A DNA stretch of 22,144 nucleotides from a virus. Position numbers and translations under genes: made by a program. The stretch spans positions 1-22,144 of IMG/VR virus record IMGVR_UViG_3300013372_001457; one strand, given 5' to 3'. The notes under the pieces are model-generated. The model saw only the letters and a program-made list of their open reading frames with translations. It searched no databases and was not told the DNA's origin. Positions 3,686-12,672 of this stretch are shown here, one piece after another; positions within the stretch are counted from its first letter, which is position 1; every line of letters starts with the position of its first letter.

Positions 3686-4312
3686 CTATGCGGCTTGCTG
3701 AATGCTGTTCAGATCGTCAACCATCTTGCTTACTTCGCCCAAGAAGTCGATAACTTCGCTCTCTAACATCTTGATGTATAGGTCATCACGCGGAACCCGC
3801 ACAACCAGCAAGTGCAAATGCAGTGGAAACCTTGGATCAAAGGAAACAAAGTCGCACCATTTCCTGCCAGTGCATGCCATTTGCCACATCATTTGAGTGA
3901 TGTATTTGTTTTCAGGCTTGCGAGACAAAAGCGATTTGGCGTGTGTTGCTTGGTTGGGGCATTTGATTTCTAGCAATCCATCGGCGTCAATAGTTCCGTC
4001 AGGCGAAGCGCCAGCCATAGCAATCCTTGGGTGCTGGACCATTGCAACCTCTTCAACAATCGCGCCCGTTCTGGCTTCATATGCGGCTCTAGCTAGTGGC
4101 TCAGTCTCAGTACCCCATCGCATGGCGTCATTGCTGAACGATGCGGCATGCGTGCCAGTGATGCGCTCCAGCGCAAGTTCTACGCAGTAGTTCTCGCGGC
4201 TGGTGCTGTACCCGCTTTTGGTCTTGGCGATCACGTCTGCAATGCGGCTTGCAGTTGCGCGGCCTAGTCTCTGCGCGAACCATTCAGGGCTACCCTGGAT
4301 AACGTTGATCAT
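3686..4312 (-). CDS. exo: YqaJ/lambda-Exo-type recombination exonuclease
   Basis: The 208-aa product matches the YqaJ viral recombinase (lambda exonuclease-like) family. It has GSPEWFAQRLGRATASRIADV at the N-terminus and WGTETEP (66-72). The PD-(D/E)XK core comprises ASPDG with Asp105 and LLEIKCPN with Glu115 and Lys117. A downstream helix carries QMMWQM (140-145). The enzyme resects dsDNA 5' to 3' to give the 3' single strand used by the annealase. It overlaps the Bet/RecT gene by ATGA (4309-4312), directly downstream of it, the usual pairing of a phage single-strand annealing system. No Gam or SSB is evident next to it. The length fits the family. Confidence 0.93.
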   Translation of the reverse strand: MINVIQGSPEWFAQRLGRATASRIADVIAKTKSGYSTSRENYCVELALERITGTHAASFSNDAMRWGTETEPLARAAYEARTGAIVEEVAMVQHPRIAMAGASPDGTIDADGLLEIKCPNQATHAKSLLSRKPENKYITQMMWQMACTGRKWCDFVSFDPRFPLHLHLLVVRVPRDDLYIKMLESEVIDFLGEVSKMVDDLNSIQQAA

Positions 4313-5076
4313 GCTGGCACCTCGTCAACTGTACGGGCGGTGGCTTCTGCTTCTAGTGCGGCCTTCTTGTCCTTTACGGCCTGTTTCAGCGCTGCATGCC
4401 CGTTCTTGTCCTGCGCGGCTACAGCCTTAGCGCCCTCGGCCTTCCAAACCATTTCTAGCGATTCCTTGGAAACGCAGCATTCAACGGCTTCTAGTGCGCC
4501 GATCACATCAAACAGAATTGGCGTCAATTCGCCTGTGTCTGGGTCTACACGCTTTGGCGCGTCTGCTTCAATAATCCGCTCTGCCTCGTCCTGTTCGTAG
4601 ATTCCAGCAAACCCAAAGGCCAACCGGGCGCATTGAATCATTGCCTTGTGGCGCAGCATGCGGTACGGGTGCGACTGCCAAGGGCCAGCGTTAGGGCGCT
4701 TGCATTCAGCCATCCATTCAGTCACCTTTATAGGGTGGCTGCGGTCCTTGCGGTAGATGGTGCAAGTGCAACTATCGGCGTCCTGCGTAAAGTCCATGCC
4801 GTCAAACTCGGGGCGGCTGTTGATGATGCGGGACCAGCCATCCAAGCCGACAACAGGAACAATGCCGCCCTTATCTGGGAAGGCGTAAATCTCTTTTGTG
4901 AACGGATTTAAGCCGTATTGCTGCGCCACGATTAGCAAAGCCGTCATCTGCGCATCAGATACAGGCGTTCCACTCTTAAAGCATGTTTGCTTGAGCGTTG
5001 CGGCCAACTCAGAGCCATCGCCCATGTTGAACTGCTTTGCCAGATTGCTTGTCAATGTTGCTAGTGCTGTTGTCAT
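4309..5076 (-). CDS. bet: Bet/RecT single-strand annealing protein
   Basis: This 255-aa product belongs to the RecT/Bet family. It has AQMTALLIVAQQYGLNPFTK, then EIYAFPDKGGIVPVVGLDGW, WMAECKRP, and YRMLRHKAMIQCARLAFGF followed by IYEQDEAERI, all in the usual order. A charged Ala/Lys-rich tail forms the C-terminus (about 205-255). Bet anneals complementary single strands and is loaded by the exonuclease encoded immediately downstream; together they drive phage recombination and concatemer formation. The start at 5076 overlaps the upstream stop as ATGA and follows GAGGTGAAGG on the minus strand. Confidence 0.94.
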   Translation of the reverse strand: MTTALATLTSNLAKQFNMGDGSELAATLKQTCFKSGTPVSDAQMTALLIVAQQYGLNPFTKEIYAFPDKGGIVPVVGLDGWSRIINSRPEFDGMDFTQDADSCTCTIYRKDRSHPIKVTEWMAECKRPNAGPWQSHPYRMLRHKAMIQCARLAFGFAGIYEQDEAERIIEADAPKRVDPDTGELTPILFDVIGALEAVECCVSKESLEMVWKAEGAKAVAAQDKNGHAALKQAVKDKKAALEAEATARTVDEVPA

Positions 5077-5443: not shown

Positions 5444-5538
5444 ACAGGCCCCCACACGAACAAGCAGTGATAAAGAGTGACCATCGCTGCAAGGTAGGTG
5501 CAGCACAGAACGCGCTCATAGGCGGTTAGCGTTTTCAT
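5440..5538 (-). CDS. 32-aa mini membrane protein
   Basis: ATG 5538 overlaps the stop of the Ala-rich repeat gene as ATGA (5535-5538) and has GAGGTGAAG just upstream on the minus strand. The 32-codon frame ends at TGA 5440-5442, which again overlaps the next gene as ATGA. The product is MKTLTAYERVLCCTYLAAMV followed by TLYHCLFVWGPV, essentially one Cys-containing hydrophobic helix. The ribosome site and coupling at both ends support translation. Such short ORFs can also serve mainly to couple neighbours, so confidence is moderate. Confidence 0.5.
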   Translation of the reverse strand: MKTLTAYERVLCCTYLAAMVTLYHCLFVWGPV

Positions 5539-6122
5539 GCTTCACCTCGCTGTTCAATTTCAGCGCAGACGATGCGCAACAAGTCTGCCTGCACGGCACT
5601 AGCAGCGTCCCTAGCAACGGCCCAAGCAGCGGACCCAGCAGCGTCCCTAGCAACGGCCCAAGCAGCGGAACTAGCAACGGCCCAAGCAGCGGACCTAGCA
5701 ACGATCCAAGCAGCGTCCCTAGCAACGGCCCAAGCAGCGTCCCTAGCAGCGTCCCTAGCAGCGGACCCAGCAGCGTCCCTAGCAACGGCCCAAGCAGCGG
5801 CCCAAGCAGCGGCTAACTCTGCATCTGTTGCTAACCCGTCTGCATGCCGCTCGGCAACATCAATGGCCGCTATGCTTCGTGCAGCCGTCATAAGGTGCTG
5901 CACGCTTCTAGCGCAATCCACTGCATACAAACGCATTTCGCGTTGATGGCCTTCAACTGCACGAAGGCACCATAGAGCGTCATCCAAACCATTGCTATCC
6001 AGAATGGTTGTGATTGCCAGCGGCGCATCGTCTGCTTTGGTTTTGCCAAGGTTTCTCAGCAGCTTTGTCCATCCGTCATGGCAAGGGCCGAGCGCCCGGA
6101 TTTGGTTAAGTGTTGTTTTCAT
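5535..6122 (-). CDS. Phage protein with Ala-rich tetrapeptide-repeat tail
   Basis: The 195-aa product has a globular N-terminal half (about 1-105) with features I associate with a recurring phage family: LNQIRALGPCHDGWTKLLRN, GKTKADDAPL, TILDSNGLDDALWCLRAVEG and AAIDVAERHADGLATDAEL. A tail of about 70 residues follows, built from four-residue units such as AAWA, VARD, AAGS and AARD, and then a short ending (QADLLRIVCAEIEQRGEA). The repeat is likely a long Ala-rich helix. Start 6122 overlaps the upstream stop as ATGA. Similar proteins are often labelled 'putative immunity protein' in databases, a label I cannot confirm. Function unknown. Confidence 0.75.
   Translation of the reverse strand: MKTTLNQIRALGPCHDGWTKLLRNLGKTKADDAPLAITTILDSNGLDDALWCLRAVEGHQREMRLYAVDCARSVQHLMTAARSIAAIDVAERHADGLATDAELAAAWAAAWAVARDAAGSAARDAARDAAWAVARDAAWIVARSAAWAVASSAAWAVARDAAGSAAWAVARDAASAVQADLLRIVCAEIEQRGEA
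5597..5815 (-). repeat. 12/24-bp tandem repeat encoding Ala-rich units
   Basis: On the plus strand the units read like gcagcgtccctagcaacggc and variants, with a period of 12 bp and a dominant 24-bp higher-order unit, running about 18 units. On the minus strand they encode AAWA-VARD-type tetrapeptides within the 5535-6122 gene. Because the period is a multiple of three, all frames stay open here, which creates several spurious ORFs on both strands. Copy number can change by slippage or recombination without a frameshift. End points are approximate. Confidence 0.8.
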
Positions 6123-6535: not shown

Positions 6536-6807
6536 GCTGCACCGCCAATCTTTGCAATACGCTCTTTCGCGGTGGCGTATGCCCAATTGGTTGCAGCGGC
6601 TTGCGAAGCAAGCTTTTTGCTGCGCTGTGGAACTCCAAAGTCTCTGAACTCGCCTTTAACTAAACGGGCGTTTTGCACCCATGCGTAGAAATCAACACCG
6701 TTATCACGCAGGCCAACTATGTAGCCAATTGCGCGGCCTTTTGAGTCGTTTTTTCCTGCACGGATGTGGGCTTCAAAGGTATCTCCGAGTGGCGCTGTTT
6801 GTGTCAT
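6532..6807 (-). CDS. Hypothetical protein, first gene of leftward operon
   Basis: The start at 6807 (MTQTAPLGDTFEAHIRAGKN) has a strong AGGAGT about seven bases upstream on the minus strand. The open frame to 6918 would run through the promoter region and is discarded. The 91-aa product has GRAIGYIVGLRDNGVDFYAW, then VKGEFRDFGVPQRSKKLASQ and a helical C-terminus (AYATAKERIAKIG). It is basic with alternating strand and helix, and I do not recognise the family. It is the first gene read from the leftward promoter at 6843-6871, so it should be among the earliest proteins made. Confidence 0.72.
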   Translation of the reverse strand: MTQTAPLGDTFEAHIRAGKNDSKGRAIGYIVGLRDNGVDFYAWVQNARLVKGEFRDFGVPQRSKKLASQAAATNWAYATAKERIAKIGGAA

Positions 6808-6842
6808 TTCGTTTACTCCTGGTTGTTTGCTGCGATGTAGAG

Positions 6843-6871
6843 ACTGTAATACGCAAATAAGCGTAACGCAA
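6843..6871 (-). promoter_or_regulatory. Leftward early promoter (sigma70-like)
   Basis: On the minus strand, -35 TTGCGT (6871-6866) and -10 TACAGT (6848-6843) are separated by 17 bp. Transcription would start near 6836, giving a leader of about 28 nt to the first gene with its AGGAGT site. The -10 box overlaps one copy of the 9-bp inverted repeat (6846-6854). Its layout mirrors the divergent rightward promoter exactly. Confidence 0.6.
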
Positions 6872-6930
6872 TAGGTTTCTGCAAATAAATTAAAAATAAA
6901 TCGCTTGCGATGTTGCAAAAAGCGTATTAC
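6846..6930. promoter_or_regulatory. Operator candidate: paired GTAATACGC / GCGTATTAC sites
   Basis: A perfect 9-bp inverted repeat consists of GTAATACGC at 6846-6854 and GCGTATTAC at 6922-6930, centre to centre 76 bp. Each copy begins 17 bp after the start of the -35 of its promoter and covers the start of the -10. Within the region there is also TACGC-N6-GCGTA (6850-6865), and ATCGC-TT-GCGAT (6900-6911) on the rightward -35. These are good candidates for binding by a regulator that controls both early promoters together, perhaps the RHH-like product of the gene at 6941. Confidence 0.5.
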
Positions 6931-6933
6931 TAT
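6905..6933 (+). promoter_or_regulatory. Rightward early promoter (sigma70-like)
   Basis: -35 TTGCGA (6905-6910), a 17-bp spacer and -10 TACTAT (6928-6933) form a good sigma70 promoter. The expected start of transcription is around 6939-6941, which coincides with the ATG at 6941. The transcript would therefore be leaderless or nearly so. The -10 overlaps the second copy of the 9-bp inverted repeat. Confidence 0.62.
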
Positions 6934-6940
6934 CTACCTC

Positions 6941-7093
6941 ATGAAAACAAATCAACCAACTATAAACAACAGCATACGCCTGCCGGTATCCTACTGGGCC
7001 AAGCTGCGTGCTGTGTGGCAAAAATCAGGCGGCGGATGGTTATTAAAAGCCATAGACCGGGAGCATAAACGCATTTTTGGAGTTACCAAATGA
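6941..7093 (+). CDS. Ribbon-helix-helix-like early regulator candidate
   Basis: The start at 6941 gives a 50-aa product beginning MKTNQPTINNSIRLPVSYWA. The frame is open to 6905, but that part is promoter. The layout matches an Arc/MetJ-type ribbon-helix-helix: a short strand (NSIRLP), helix A (VSYWAKLRAVWQKS), a GGG turn and helix B (WLLKAIDREHKRIF). RHH proteins bind DNA as dimers through the strand. It is the first gene of the rightward early operon and lies beside paired operator-like sites, so an Arc- or Cro-like role in the switch is plausible. No Shine-Dalgarno is visible, which fits a leaderless mRNA. The RHH call is by pattern only. Confidence 0.65.
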   Translation: MKTNQPTINNSIRLPVSYWAKLRAVWQKSGGGWLLKAIDREHKRIFGVTK

Positions 7094-7218
7094 AACACGC
7101 TCTAGCCCTTGCCGTAGCTCTCCTAGTCGCTGGATGTGGTGGTCAGTCAAATCCGCTGAATATCTGCAATGAACAGGCAGAGGCCGAAATTCAAGCGCGC
7201 AAAGAGGTGGCGGCATGA
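7090..7218 (+). CDS. 42-aa early lipoprotein
   Basis: ATG 7090 overlaps the preceding stop as ATGA, with GGAG seven bases upstream; the frame ends TGA 7216-7218, again ATGA with the next gene. The product begins MKHALALAVALLVAGCGGQS, a textbook lipoprotein signal: basic start, hydrophobic core and lipobox LVAGC with the acylated Cys at 16. The mature part would be only 27 residues (GGQSNPLNICNEQAEAEIQA...), so it is probably lipid-anchored to a membrane facing the periplasm. It is not paired with an Rz gene, so a spanin role is unlikely. Superinfection exclusion is a possible role for early phage lipoproteins, but is inference here. Confidence 0.65.
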   Translation: MKHALALAVALLVAGCGGQSNPLNICNEQAEAEIQARKEVAA

Positions 7219-7487
7219 ACTTCACCAAACCCCTTGGCCCTTTTGCGATCTTGTACGAACCACGCAATACACCAGCACCCGCACCAATCAAAAAGAACAA
7301 ATACAAGACCAAGAAAGAGCGTGCAGTTATTGCACTGGAAACGCCACTAGAACGGCGCACACGCCACGCAGCAGAGCGACAGGCGGTGATGGCCGCGATT
7401 CTGCGCAAGAACCCATACACCGAAATCGGCTTATCAACAGTAGTCGCGGGTGATCGCGCCGCAGCAATTAGGAGCGCAGCTATATGA
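7215..7487 (+). CDS. Basic hypothetical protein
   Basis: This 90-aa product starts MNFTKPLGPFAILYEPRNTP, followed by a Pro-Ala linker, a very basic KKNKYKTKKERAV stretch and a helical Ala/Arg-rich C-terminus (RRTRHAAERQAVMAAILRKN, then AGDRAAAIRSAAI). The overall charge is strongly positive, which suggests nucleic-acid contact. It overlaps its neighbours by ATGA at both ends and sits immediately before the methyltransferase gene. No family is recognised. Confidence 0.65.
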   Translation: MNFTKPLGPFAILYEPRNTPAPAPIKKNKYKTKKERAVIALETPLERRTRHAAERQAVMAAILRKNPYTEIGLSTVVAGDRAAAIRSAAI

Positions 7488-8143
7488 CACAGCCTGTAGT
7501 CATTGGTAGCGCTACTTTGTACCTAGGCGATTGCATGGACATATTGCCGACGCTGCCAAAGGTTGACGCGGTGATTACTGACCCGCCTTATGGGCTGGCC
7601 GATAAATTGTGCGGCGGCACTTGGGGCAAGCAGTACGAGGGAGAAAGCAAGGATTGGGATGCAAAGCCGTGGGAGGTGACACCGCTATTTTTATCAAGTG
7701 CTGAGAAGTTTGTAATTTGGGGTGGTAACTATTTCAACCTGCCACCTTCGCGTTGCTGGCTTATCCACGACAAAACTATTCGAGGCATGACCTTTGCAGA
7801 TGCAGAGATGGCTTGGACAAATTTCGATAAAAACACGCGCGTGTTTTCGTATTTGGTACCGCGAGGGTTTTTAGGCGGGCAACGCGAGCACCCAACCCAA
7901 AAGCCACTGGCCTTGATGCACTGGTGCATTGAGCAAGCAGGCAACCCCGAAACCATCCTAGACCCATTCATGGGCAGCGGAACAACAGGGGTAGCAGCCA
8001 TCCAGCTAGGCCGCAAGTTCATCGGCATAGAGCGCGAACCCAAGTATTTCGACATTGCCGTGAATCGCATAGAGCAAGCAGTCGCACAAGGCCAGCTATT
8101 CGCACCCGAACAACCCAAGCAAGTACAGGAGTCCTTTATATGA
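7484..8143 (+). CDS. Orphan DNA methyltransferase (beta class, DPPY)
   Basis: The 219-aa product has the order of a beta-class amino-methyltransferase. YLGDCMDILPTLP is followed by catalytic motif IV DPPY (33-36), then HPTQKP (136-141) and the AdoMet-binding motif I DPFMGSGTTG (160-169), with GIEREPKYF at 181-189. DPPY fits N6-adenine or N4-cytosine methylation; I cannot tell the target site. No restriction endonuclease lies beside it, so it is an orphan enzyme, as often carried by phages to protect their DNA from host restriction or to alter regulation. It is short for the class and has only a small target-recognition region between motifs IV and I. It overlaps both neighbours by ATGA. Confidence 0.93.
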   Translation: MTQPVVIGSATLYLGDCMDILPTLPKVDAVITDPPYGLADKLCGGTWGKQYEGESKDWDAKPWEVTPLFLSSAEKFVIWGGNYFNLPPSRCWLIHDKTIRGMTFADAEMAWTNFDKNTRVFSYLVPRGFLGGQREHPTQKPLALMHWCIEQAGNPETILDPFMGSGTTGVAAIQLGRKFIGIEREPKYFDIAVNRIEQAVAQGQLFAPEQPKQVQESFI

Positions 8144-8331
8144 CACAGCACGAAAGCATCATCAAACGCCTACGCAAAGGCTGGACAACGGGCCTAGACG
8201 CCCTCCAGACATGCGGAACCATGAAGTTAGCTACTCGGGTATCAGAACTGCGCCGGGACGGTTACACGGTCTTGGATAAGTGGGTGGAGGCTAACGGGAA
8301 AAGATTCAAGGCATATCGCATCTGCAAATGA
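8140..8331 (+). CDS. Helix-turn-helix protein (HTH_39-like)
   Basis: The 63-aa product starts MTQHESIIKRLRKGWTTGLD. The pattern is IIKRLRKG-(W/L)T, ALQTCGTMKLATRVSELRRD, GYTVLDKWV and KAYRI. This matches a small winged helix-turn-helix type seen in phages, in which a helix ending in RVxELRxxGY leads into the wing. It probably binds DNA. Its position just before the DUF1376 replication gene suggests a role in replication or in early-operon control, which is inference. ATGA overlaps lie at both ends. Confidence 0.72.
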   Translation: MTQHESIIKRLRKGWTTGLDALQTCGTMKLATRVSELRRDGYTVLDKWVEANGKRFKAYRICK

Positions 8332-9107
8332 ATTACTACGAGCGCCACATTGGCGACTACCTGAAAGACACCGCGCACCTCACGCTCTTAGAGCATGGTG
8401 TTTACACACGTTTGATGGATGTGTATTACACAAAAGAGAGCCCATTGTCTGGAAGTGATGTCGCAAGACTCATTGGCGCACGTTCTAAAGATGAACGCGC
8501 AGCCCTTGACGCTGTGTTGTCTGAGTTCTTTGTATTGGTTGACGGTTCACACGTTCAAGAGCGTTGCTCCCGTGAGATCGCCAAGTACCAAGCCAAGGCA
8601 CAGAAAAACCGCGAGGTTGGAAAACTTGGCGGCAGACCACGCAAAACAGAAACCACGGTGGTTACAGAAACAGAACCCACAAATAACCATGATGGTTTTA
8701 AAACAGAACCCACAAATAACCCTCCCCAGTACCCAGTAACCAGTAACCAGAAACCAGTATTAAAGAATACAAGCGCACCGCCTGACGGCGTTTCGCAAAA
8801 AGTCTGGACCGATTTCCTCAAGACCCGAAAAACCAAGGTCACAGACACGGCTATCGACGGAATACGCCGCGAGGCAACCAAAGCCGGAATCTCGTTGGAG
8901 ACGGCTTTGGAGACGAGTTGCGCTAGAGGCTGGCAATCGTTTCGAGCCGACTGGATGAGAGAGGCCCGGCAAGGCACCGCAATGCCTGCGTGGCGCGTCG
9001 AACAACGCAACCGAACCCTGGAGGCAGTACCGAGCATTTCGGAGGCTCCTGCACAACAATTTTTTGAAGTAGAGGCCCGTGATGTCACTCCCGCAAGACT
9101 GGGTTAA
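8328..9107 (+). CDS. DUF1376 (YdaU-like) replication-associated protein
   Basis: The 259-aa protein begins with a clear DUF1376 domain (about 1-92): YYERHIGDYLKDTAHLTLLE, then GVYTRLMDVYY and DVARLIGARSKDER. A basic GKLGGRPRK follows (99-106). The linker at about 107-148 is low-complexity and repeat-bearing (TETEPTNN twice). A C-terminal domain ends in CARGWQSFRADWMREARQ, typical of these proteins. DUF1376 proteins occupy the replication-initiator (O-like) position in many lambdoid phages. A helicase-loader-like gene follows, which supports that role here. Start 8328 overlaps the previous stop as ATGA. The replication role is inferred from position and family habit. Confidence 0.85.
   Translation: MNYYERHIGDYLKDTAHLTLLEHGVYTRLMDVYYTKESPLSGSDVARLIGARSKDERAALDAVLSEFFVLVDGSHVQERCSREIAKYQAKAQKNREVGKLGGRPRKTETTVVTETEPTNNHDGFKTEPTNNPPQYPVTSNQKPVLKNTSAPPDGVSQKVWTDFLKTRKTKVTDTAIDGIRREATKAGISLETALETSCARGWQSFRADWMREARQGTAMPAWRVEQRNRTLEAVPSISEAPAQQFFEVEARDVTPARLG
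8668..8721 (+). repeat. 21-bp direct repeat in the DUF1376 linker
   Basis: The 21-bp sequence starting aaacagaacccacaaataac is present twice without mismatch, at 8668-8688 and 8701-8721, a 33-bp (11-codon) period. It encodes the repeated TEPTNN. Short ccagtaac/ccagaaac units follow (about 8727-8758). The period is in frame, so copy-number change would only lengthen or shorten the linker. Confidence 0.85.
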
Positions 9108-12153: not shown

Positions 12154-12672
12154 ATGAGCATCAAGGAACGATACGCCAGCGCAGTGAATAGTTCTAACCT
12201 GTCAGTGAAGTACGAGACGAATTTTAGCGACACCGATTGCCTGGCAGCCATGGGCATCGCCGCGCGCCACCACCCGCTAGGAGCAGCCCTGCAGCGCCTG
12301 TTTGTGGACGGCAAGGCCAGGGAATGCGTGGATCTGATGGCCAAGATGGCCAGGGACCACAGCTTTAAGGTCAAGGCCCGCATTTCCCCATATCAAAGCC
12401 AGCGACTGGCCGAGAAGGTTTTGGCATGGTATCGGCACGGGGTGTGCACGGAATGTGGCGGAACTGGAAAGGAAATCATCATCGAGCCCAAGCCGCATCT
12501 GTCAGAAGACGACTGCCAGCACTGCCTGGGCACCGGCCGCAGGCTGTTTGAGCCGAACTTTACCGCGGAGACTCTGGCGGTTGCATGCTGGTTGCGGGAC
12601 GAGGTAAGCAAGCACCAGGCGATGGCCGGAAAAACCGCAATGATCGCAATCGGCGTGAATATGGATTTATAG
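12154..12672 (+). CDS. Q-like late antitermination protein
   Basis: The 172-aa product has a helical N-terminal region. A zinc-knuckle pair follows: VCTECGGTGKE (Cys98, Cys101) and DCQHCLGTGRR (Cys121, Cys124), separated by about 20 residues. A helical C-terminus (ETLAVACWLRDEVSKHQAMA) ends the protein. The CxxCxGTG pair inside a protein of this length, last in the early operon and directly before the late promoter and terminase, is characteristic of phage Q-type antiterminators. These let RNA polymerase from the late promoter read through terminators. DnaJ-type zinc proteins share CxxCxGxG but have four knuckles and a J domain, absent here. Confidence 0.78.
   Translation: MSIKERYASAVNSSNLSVKYETNFSDTDCLAAMGIAARHHPLGAALQRLFVDGKARECVDLMAKMARDHSFKVKARISPYQSQRLAEKVLAWYRHGVCTECGGTGKEIIIEPKPHLSEDDCQHCLGTGRRLFEPNFTAETLAVACWLRDEVSKHQAMAGKTAMIAIGVNMDL

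Follow-up and report, generated by a model that had tools for sequence, protein, structure and literature searches.

Genes and candidate promoters at the divergent interval

The stretch of DNA analysed here (the window) is a 22-kb fragment from an uncultured tailed phage (IMG/VR virus record) that encodes a portal protein of the P22 type (PF16510). A 133-bp interval, spanning positions 6808–6940, separates a leftward from a rightward gene set (Table 1). The first leftward gene is preceded by an SD-like AGGAG (6820–6816), while the rightward set begins with a 50-aa open reading frame and has the terminase and portal genes among its later members, after the DUF1376/primosomal-type gene. Elsewhere in the window, the leftward ORF at 5535–6122 encodes a long alanine-rich repeat of the AAWAVARDAA type, and other repeat-rich ORFs occupy similar places in contigs G001 and L032. 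The product of 12154–12672, which bears a CXXCXGXG zinc motif, is weakly similar to Q-like antiterminators and is a possible late-gene regulator.

Table 1. Positions of the genes, candidate promoter elements and candidate operators in the window
Feature	Position	Strand	Remarks
YqaJ exonuclease and RecT (leftward recombination genes)	3686..5076 (exonuclease 3686–4312, RecT 4309–5076)	−	
First gene of leftward operon, 91 aa	6532..6807	−	ATG at 6807
Exchangeable control cassette, 366 bp	6802..7168	.	Near-identical in G001 and G002; flanking genes differ on both sides
Leftward −10, TACAGT	6848–6843	−	Intact in L001 and L002
Left operator candidate, GCGTATTAC	6854–6846	−	Overlaps −10; intact in both near relatives
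Dyad TACGC-AAATAA-GCGTA at left site	6850–6865	.	Half-site centres 11 bp apart
Leftward −35, TTGCGT	6871–6866	−	N17 spacer
Rightward −35, TTGCGA	6905–6910	+	N17 spacer
Right operator candidate, GCGTATTAC	6922–6930	+	Overlaps −10
Rightward −10, TACTAT	6928–6933	+	Ends 7 nt before ATG at 6941
50-aa RHH-like regulator candidate	6941..7093	+	First gene of rightward operon; predicted leaderless
Rightward early genes under right promoter	7484..9107	+	Methyltransferase, HTH_39 and DUF1376 genes
DNA methyltransferase	7484–8143	+	
HTH_39 winged-helix protein, 63 aa	8140–8331	+	1.2 kb downstream, in rightward operon
DUF1376/primosomal-like protein	8328–9107	+	

The original prediction placed twin promoters in this interval, each with GCGTATTAC in the same register over its −10 and with the two sites 76 bp apart. 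All of its coordinates agree with the sequence, the 76 bp being the distance from start to start. Specifically, each 9-mer begins 17 bp past the first base of the −35, and its last three bases are the first three of the −10, so that the composite TTGCG-N12-GCGTATTAC occurs at 6871–6846 (−) and 6905–6930 (+). The window contains only these two exact copies of GCGTATTAC, and the G001 and G002 contigs likewise contain only two each. Over 14 nt (6841–6854/6922–6935) the inverted repeat still holds at 86%. The dyad at the left site (TACGC-N6-GCGTA) is absent from the right site. A strict sigma-70 scan detects no promoter in the region, and neither putative promoter is close to the sigma-70 consensus.

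For a single register, the sharing of six bases upstream of the −10 has a P of ~5e-4 in shuffled intervals, at a site picked after reading the sequence. The composite pattern TTGCG-N12-GCGTATTAC, likewise written after inspection of the data, is found twice in the window with up to two mismatches (≤2), against 0.18 expected. Within the window alone, the excess over chance is moderate and only suggestive, as promoters in general have consensus bases in common. The earlier argument that unrelated promoters should not share such a site is only modestly borne out by the window, and draws its force from the relatives described below. The half-site repeats GCGTA and CCGTG are no commoner in the intervals than in shuffles, and the argument from them was dropped.

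Conservation of the paired sites and the 50-aa gene among relatives

Homologues of the 50-aa protein were found in nine other phage contigs, at 40–98% identity. Two of them, G001 (L001) and G002 (L002), are near relatives that are 95–96% identical to the window over 366 bp, a cassette that spans the interval and the 50-aa gene. On either side of this cassette the genes have been exchanged: the first leftward genes of the three contigs are mutually unrelated, and their second rightward genes have only a signal-peptide start in common, with different structural genes. Both GCGTATTAC 9-mers are nevertheless intact in all three contigs, and the sole change near a site is a T to C at 6864 in G002, which turns the distal half-site of the left dyad into GCGCA. 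The proposed alignment of the interval with related phages thus shows conserved sites between swapped neighbours, and the loss of the repeats that had been named as a refutation is not seen. The lipoprotein signal sequence directly after the 50-aa gene (7090–7219) is only ~42 codons long in the window, whereas in G001 and G002 the same signal heads proteins of 268 and 285 aa, as if the window had lost a cargo.

The other seven contigs (L132/L140, L133/L138, L134, L135/L142, L139, L141 and L143) are diverged, with 40–58% identity to the window protein, and were found by a degenerate codon pattern for the protein followed by a profile scan. In all nine contigs the homologue heads the rightward operon, divergent leftward genes lie upstream of it in all seven diverged ones, and a −10-like hexamer ends 6–7 nt before its ATG in ten of ten contigs, the window included. 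Five of these seven have CYGTGNTACANT at both −10s, a site that differs from but is related to GCGTATTAC and stands in the same register. The site shared by the two −10s is CCGTGCTACA in L139/L141, ACCGTGCTACA in L143, CnGTGnTACAnT in L140, and in L138 is given as CTGTGNTACANT and as CTGTGnTACAnT. Register 0 is the best match among all offsets in the window, L138, L140, L139, L141 and L143, and alignment of GCGTATTAC with CCGTGCTAC yields SCGTRYTAC. Part of the identity in the CYGTGNTACANT clusters is accounted for by the TG-N that precedes the hexamer, as it doubles as an extended −10 motif. The arrangement of a regulator gene heading one operon and a common site on both promoters is weaker in L134/L142, where the left site fits clearly (TTGTGCTACATT) but the right promoter (TTAGGCTAAGAT) is a weak match, with a better fit at an offset other than 0.

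The site pair is also specific at the scale of whole genomes. In G008, G010, G011 and G013, YGTGNTACANT has exactly two copies, one on either strand, both at this locus and nowhere else. A search blind to the protein, over 2.9 million viral contigs, returned three matches for the TGTAGCACGG..CCGTGCTACA pair, all three of which encode the protein. The GTAATACGC..GCGTATTAC pair, sought in the same 2.9 million contigs, recovered the two near relatives and two matches within coding genes; the latter (L007 and L008, exact 9-mer pairs) were set aside as chance. These comparisons turn the modest excess in the window into a strong case, which we find convincing.

The 50-aa gene is the only window gene matched in all nine other contigs, some of which are fragments in which the absence of a gene is incomplete evidence. 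A search for HTH_3 (CI/Cro-type) genes was negative in ten of ten contigs and positive in control genomes, in agreement with the earlier remark that no such gene is nearby, although an HTH_39 protein is encoded downstream. A tyrosine integrase is present in three contigs (G001, G008 and G010), and none was found in the window, itself a fragment. In G001 the integrase gene (24941–25999) has the lysis genes on one side and the leftward operon on the other, and the syntenic stretch of the window is without one. Searches of whole-genome contigs, phage records and plasmid records returned no convincing homologue of the 50-aa protein.

Properties of the 50-aa protein

The 50-aa ORF is a real gene, because its length and residue pattern are kept across 40–58% identity. 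Residues R13, L14, P15, W19, G30, W33 and R40-E41 are invariant among the homologues. Close pairs differ at few nucleotides. Of six pairs compared, four show changes that are mostly, or by a clear majority, synonymous, whereas those in the L139/L141 pair mostly alter the amino acid.

The protein matches no Pfam or PHROG family. In particular, the window, G001 and G002 proteins do not match Arc (PF03869) or RHH_1 (PF01402) at E≤10, and hmmscan assigns none of seven homologues to an RHH family. Direct BLASTP against P22 Arc returned nothing, a PDB sequence search was empty or meaningless, and Foldseek gave zero matches with the first, three-sequence model. The predicted monomer structure (mean pLDDT 67.5) has an extended N-terminus followed by helices at residues 16–29 and 32–46. 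Furthermore, hhalign against an Arc/Mnt alignment built in this analysis gives a score of 20.3 (P 0.0014), where the highest of 200 column shuffles reached 17.3. It lines up the R-x-P motif and the turn glycine with their Arc/Mnt counterparts, in a weak match with a probability of just 17%. Arc reads DNA via Q9, N11 and R13. By the same alignment, N9, S11 and R13 of the window protein sit at these positions; S11 and R13 are nearly invariant among the homologues, and position 9 differs between phage types. A ribbon-helix-helix fold is thus only suggested by these models, and because the hhalign probability is so low we label the protein RHH-like and keep it out of the Arc family. The original prediction that a single regulator acts over both −10s, for which it named the adjacent 50-aa protein as candidate, is well supported by the comparison among relatives, whereas its RHH label stays unproven.

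A proposed early control switch

We consider it likely that 6808–6940 is an early control switch, in which an Arc-like protein, encoded where Cro would be, is predicted to be made from a leaderless mRNA and act as an autoregulatory dual repressor through predicted binding at both sites. Two back-to-back promoters would be read by the host polymerase, and a single operator would cover the −10 of each. The ATG stands where transcription should begin, so the mRNA of the first rightward gene, for the 50-aa and probably RHH protein, is probably leaderless; a published account describes −10 regions adjoining reading frames as one way in which leaderless genes are expressed (PMC12340547). As it accumulates, the 50-aa protein would bind both operators and block RNA polymerase at both −10s, shutting down its own operon, with the methyltransferase and replication-type genes, together with the leftward RecT/exonuclease operon. 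Because the site covers the start of the −10, binding would exclude RNA polymerase, and repression is a simpler reading than activation. A regulator encoded first in one operon would limit its own synthesis as well as the opposite operon, following the logic of Cro and Arc.

The shared bases might instead be an element of the promoters themselves, an extended or atypical −10 read by the same polymerase with a host sigma factor. The overlap of the site with the −10 fits this explanation, as do the shared core of the diverged clusters, which holds TGn-TACAnT, an extended −10, and the presence of CGTGCTACAGT at a promoter in L003/L004, which are without the 50-aa gene. However, the GCGTAT of the window lacks the TG and lies outside the sigma-70 consensus, the −35s share a non-consensus CG, YGTGNTACANT is confined to one divergent pair in four genomes, and the pair occurs only with the 50-aa gene, which together make a promoter element unlikely. 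A different phage or host regulator binding both sites is less likely still. One example, the 63-aa HTH_39 protein, has a DNA-binding fold, shares the operon and is kept in both near relatives, G001 and G002. None of the seven diverged contigs that encode the 50-aa protein yielded it, however (some of them are fragments), and the 50-aa gene alone is common to all ten. Being confined to the window cluster, the HTH_39 protein was rejected as the common regulator.

Inverted duplication or chance could also produce a likeness without regulatory meaning, and the in-register P value from the window alone, for a site chosen after inspection, leaves some room for this. Yet the likeness is limited to the bases next to the −35 and −10 and does not extend over whole promoters; it recurs in register, with changed sequence, in diverged phages; and both copies are retained while neighbouring genes are exchanged. 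We regard this explanation as very improbable, and favour control of both promoters by the 50-aa protein.

Such control resembles that of P22 Arc (immI, arc/mnt), in which a ~50-aa repressor gene is also first on the rightward transcript of divergent promoters and the operator lies inside the promoters, as the candidate sites here lie over promoter elements. In P22, however, a single arc operator in overlapping promoters is accompanied by a separate mnt operator, whereas here there is one site per promoter, 76 bp apart; ~40 nt separate Pant from the arc ATG, as compared with 6–7 nt from −10 to ATG here; and Arc acts at the antirepressor gene, whereas the operons here are the main early ones. 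Arc and the 50-aa protein show no homology at the sequence level. As with lambda Cro, the gene is the first rightward early gene and its product is expected to act on both early promoters. The lambda cI mRNA is reported to be leaderless, as is predicted here. In contrast to lambda CI/Cro, the ten contigs lack an HTH_3 protein, and whereas PL and PR flank the repressor gene and have triple operators, the promoters here are directly back to back with one site each. RHH regulators typically autoregulate their own promoters. The small size and predicted strand-helix-helix order of the protein are like those of CopG/Mnt-type RHH regulators, but it matches neither the RHH_1 nor the Arc profile. Other RHH regulators include CopG, Mnt and archaeal-virus factors (review PMC5569661).

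Repeats over −10 hexamers also occur at several loci without a 50-aa homologue. In the RecT-bearing L032, promoters at ~1830–1890 (−) and 3690–3720 (+) share GCTACCTTTTTGGTATTAGAAT over the −10, with a dyad TACC-N5-GGTA, and the CATCGCA leader is the same as in the leftward transcript of the window. In the divergent intervals of L072 (1440–1510) and L082 (4980–5050), the 11-bp inverted repeat GGTGTACTTAT covers the rightward −10 and possibly a leftward one too, again with a CATCGCA leader. In L003/L004, TTGACT..TAGCACGTGCTACAGT just upstream of 6001 precedes a homologue of the leftward 91-aa protein; TAGCACGTGCTACAGT is a perfect dyad over the −10 and resembles the family operator. L003–L006, which were found via the 91-aa protein, are not relatives of the divergent switch.

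Since an HTH_3 repressor is lacking and G001, G008 and G010 carry an integrase, the 50-aa protein might also be a lysogeny repressor. More speculatively, and in our view rather doubtfully, the 49–56 aa protein could be the main, possibly the sole, immunity repressor, forming with two phage-type-specific operators a minimal lysis-lysogeny switch in a ~370-bp cassette passed between unrelated integrase-bearing phages.

From the sequence evidence, early control in these phages would be Arc-like or Cro-like in kind and exerted by a family of ~50-residue proteins apparently unrecognised before. Where the usual early repressor is absent, such phages may encode ~50-residue regulators that Pfam and PHROGs miss, together with their probable operators. 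Protein and site vary together across the phages, so the specificity of a minimal DNA-binding protein would be testable by swapping pairs, and a paired-site search may find regulators below the length that profile methods reach.
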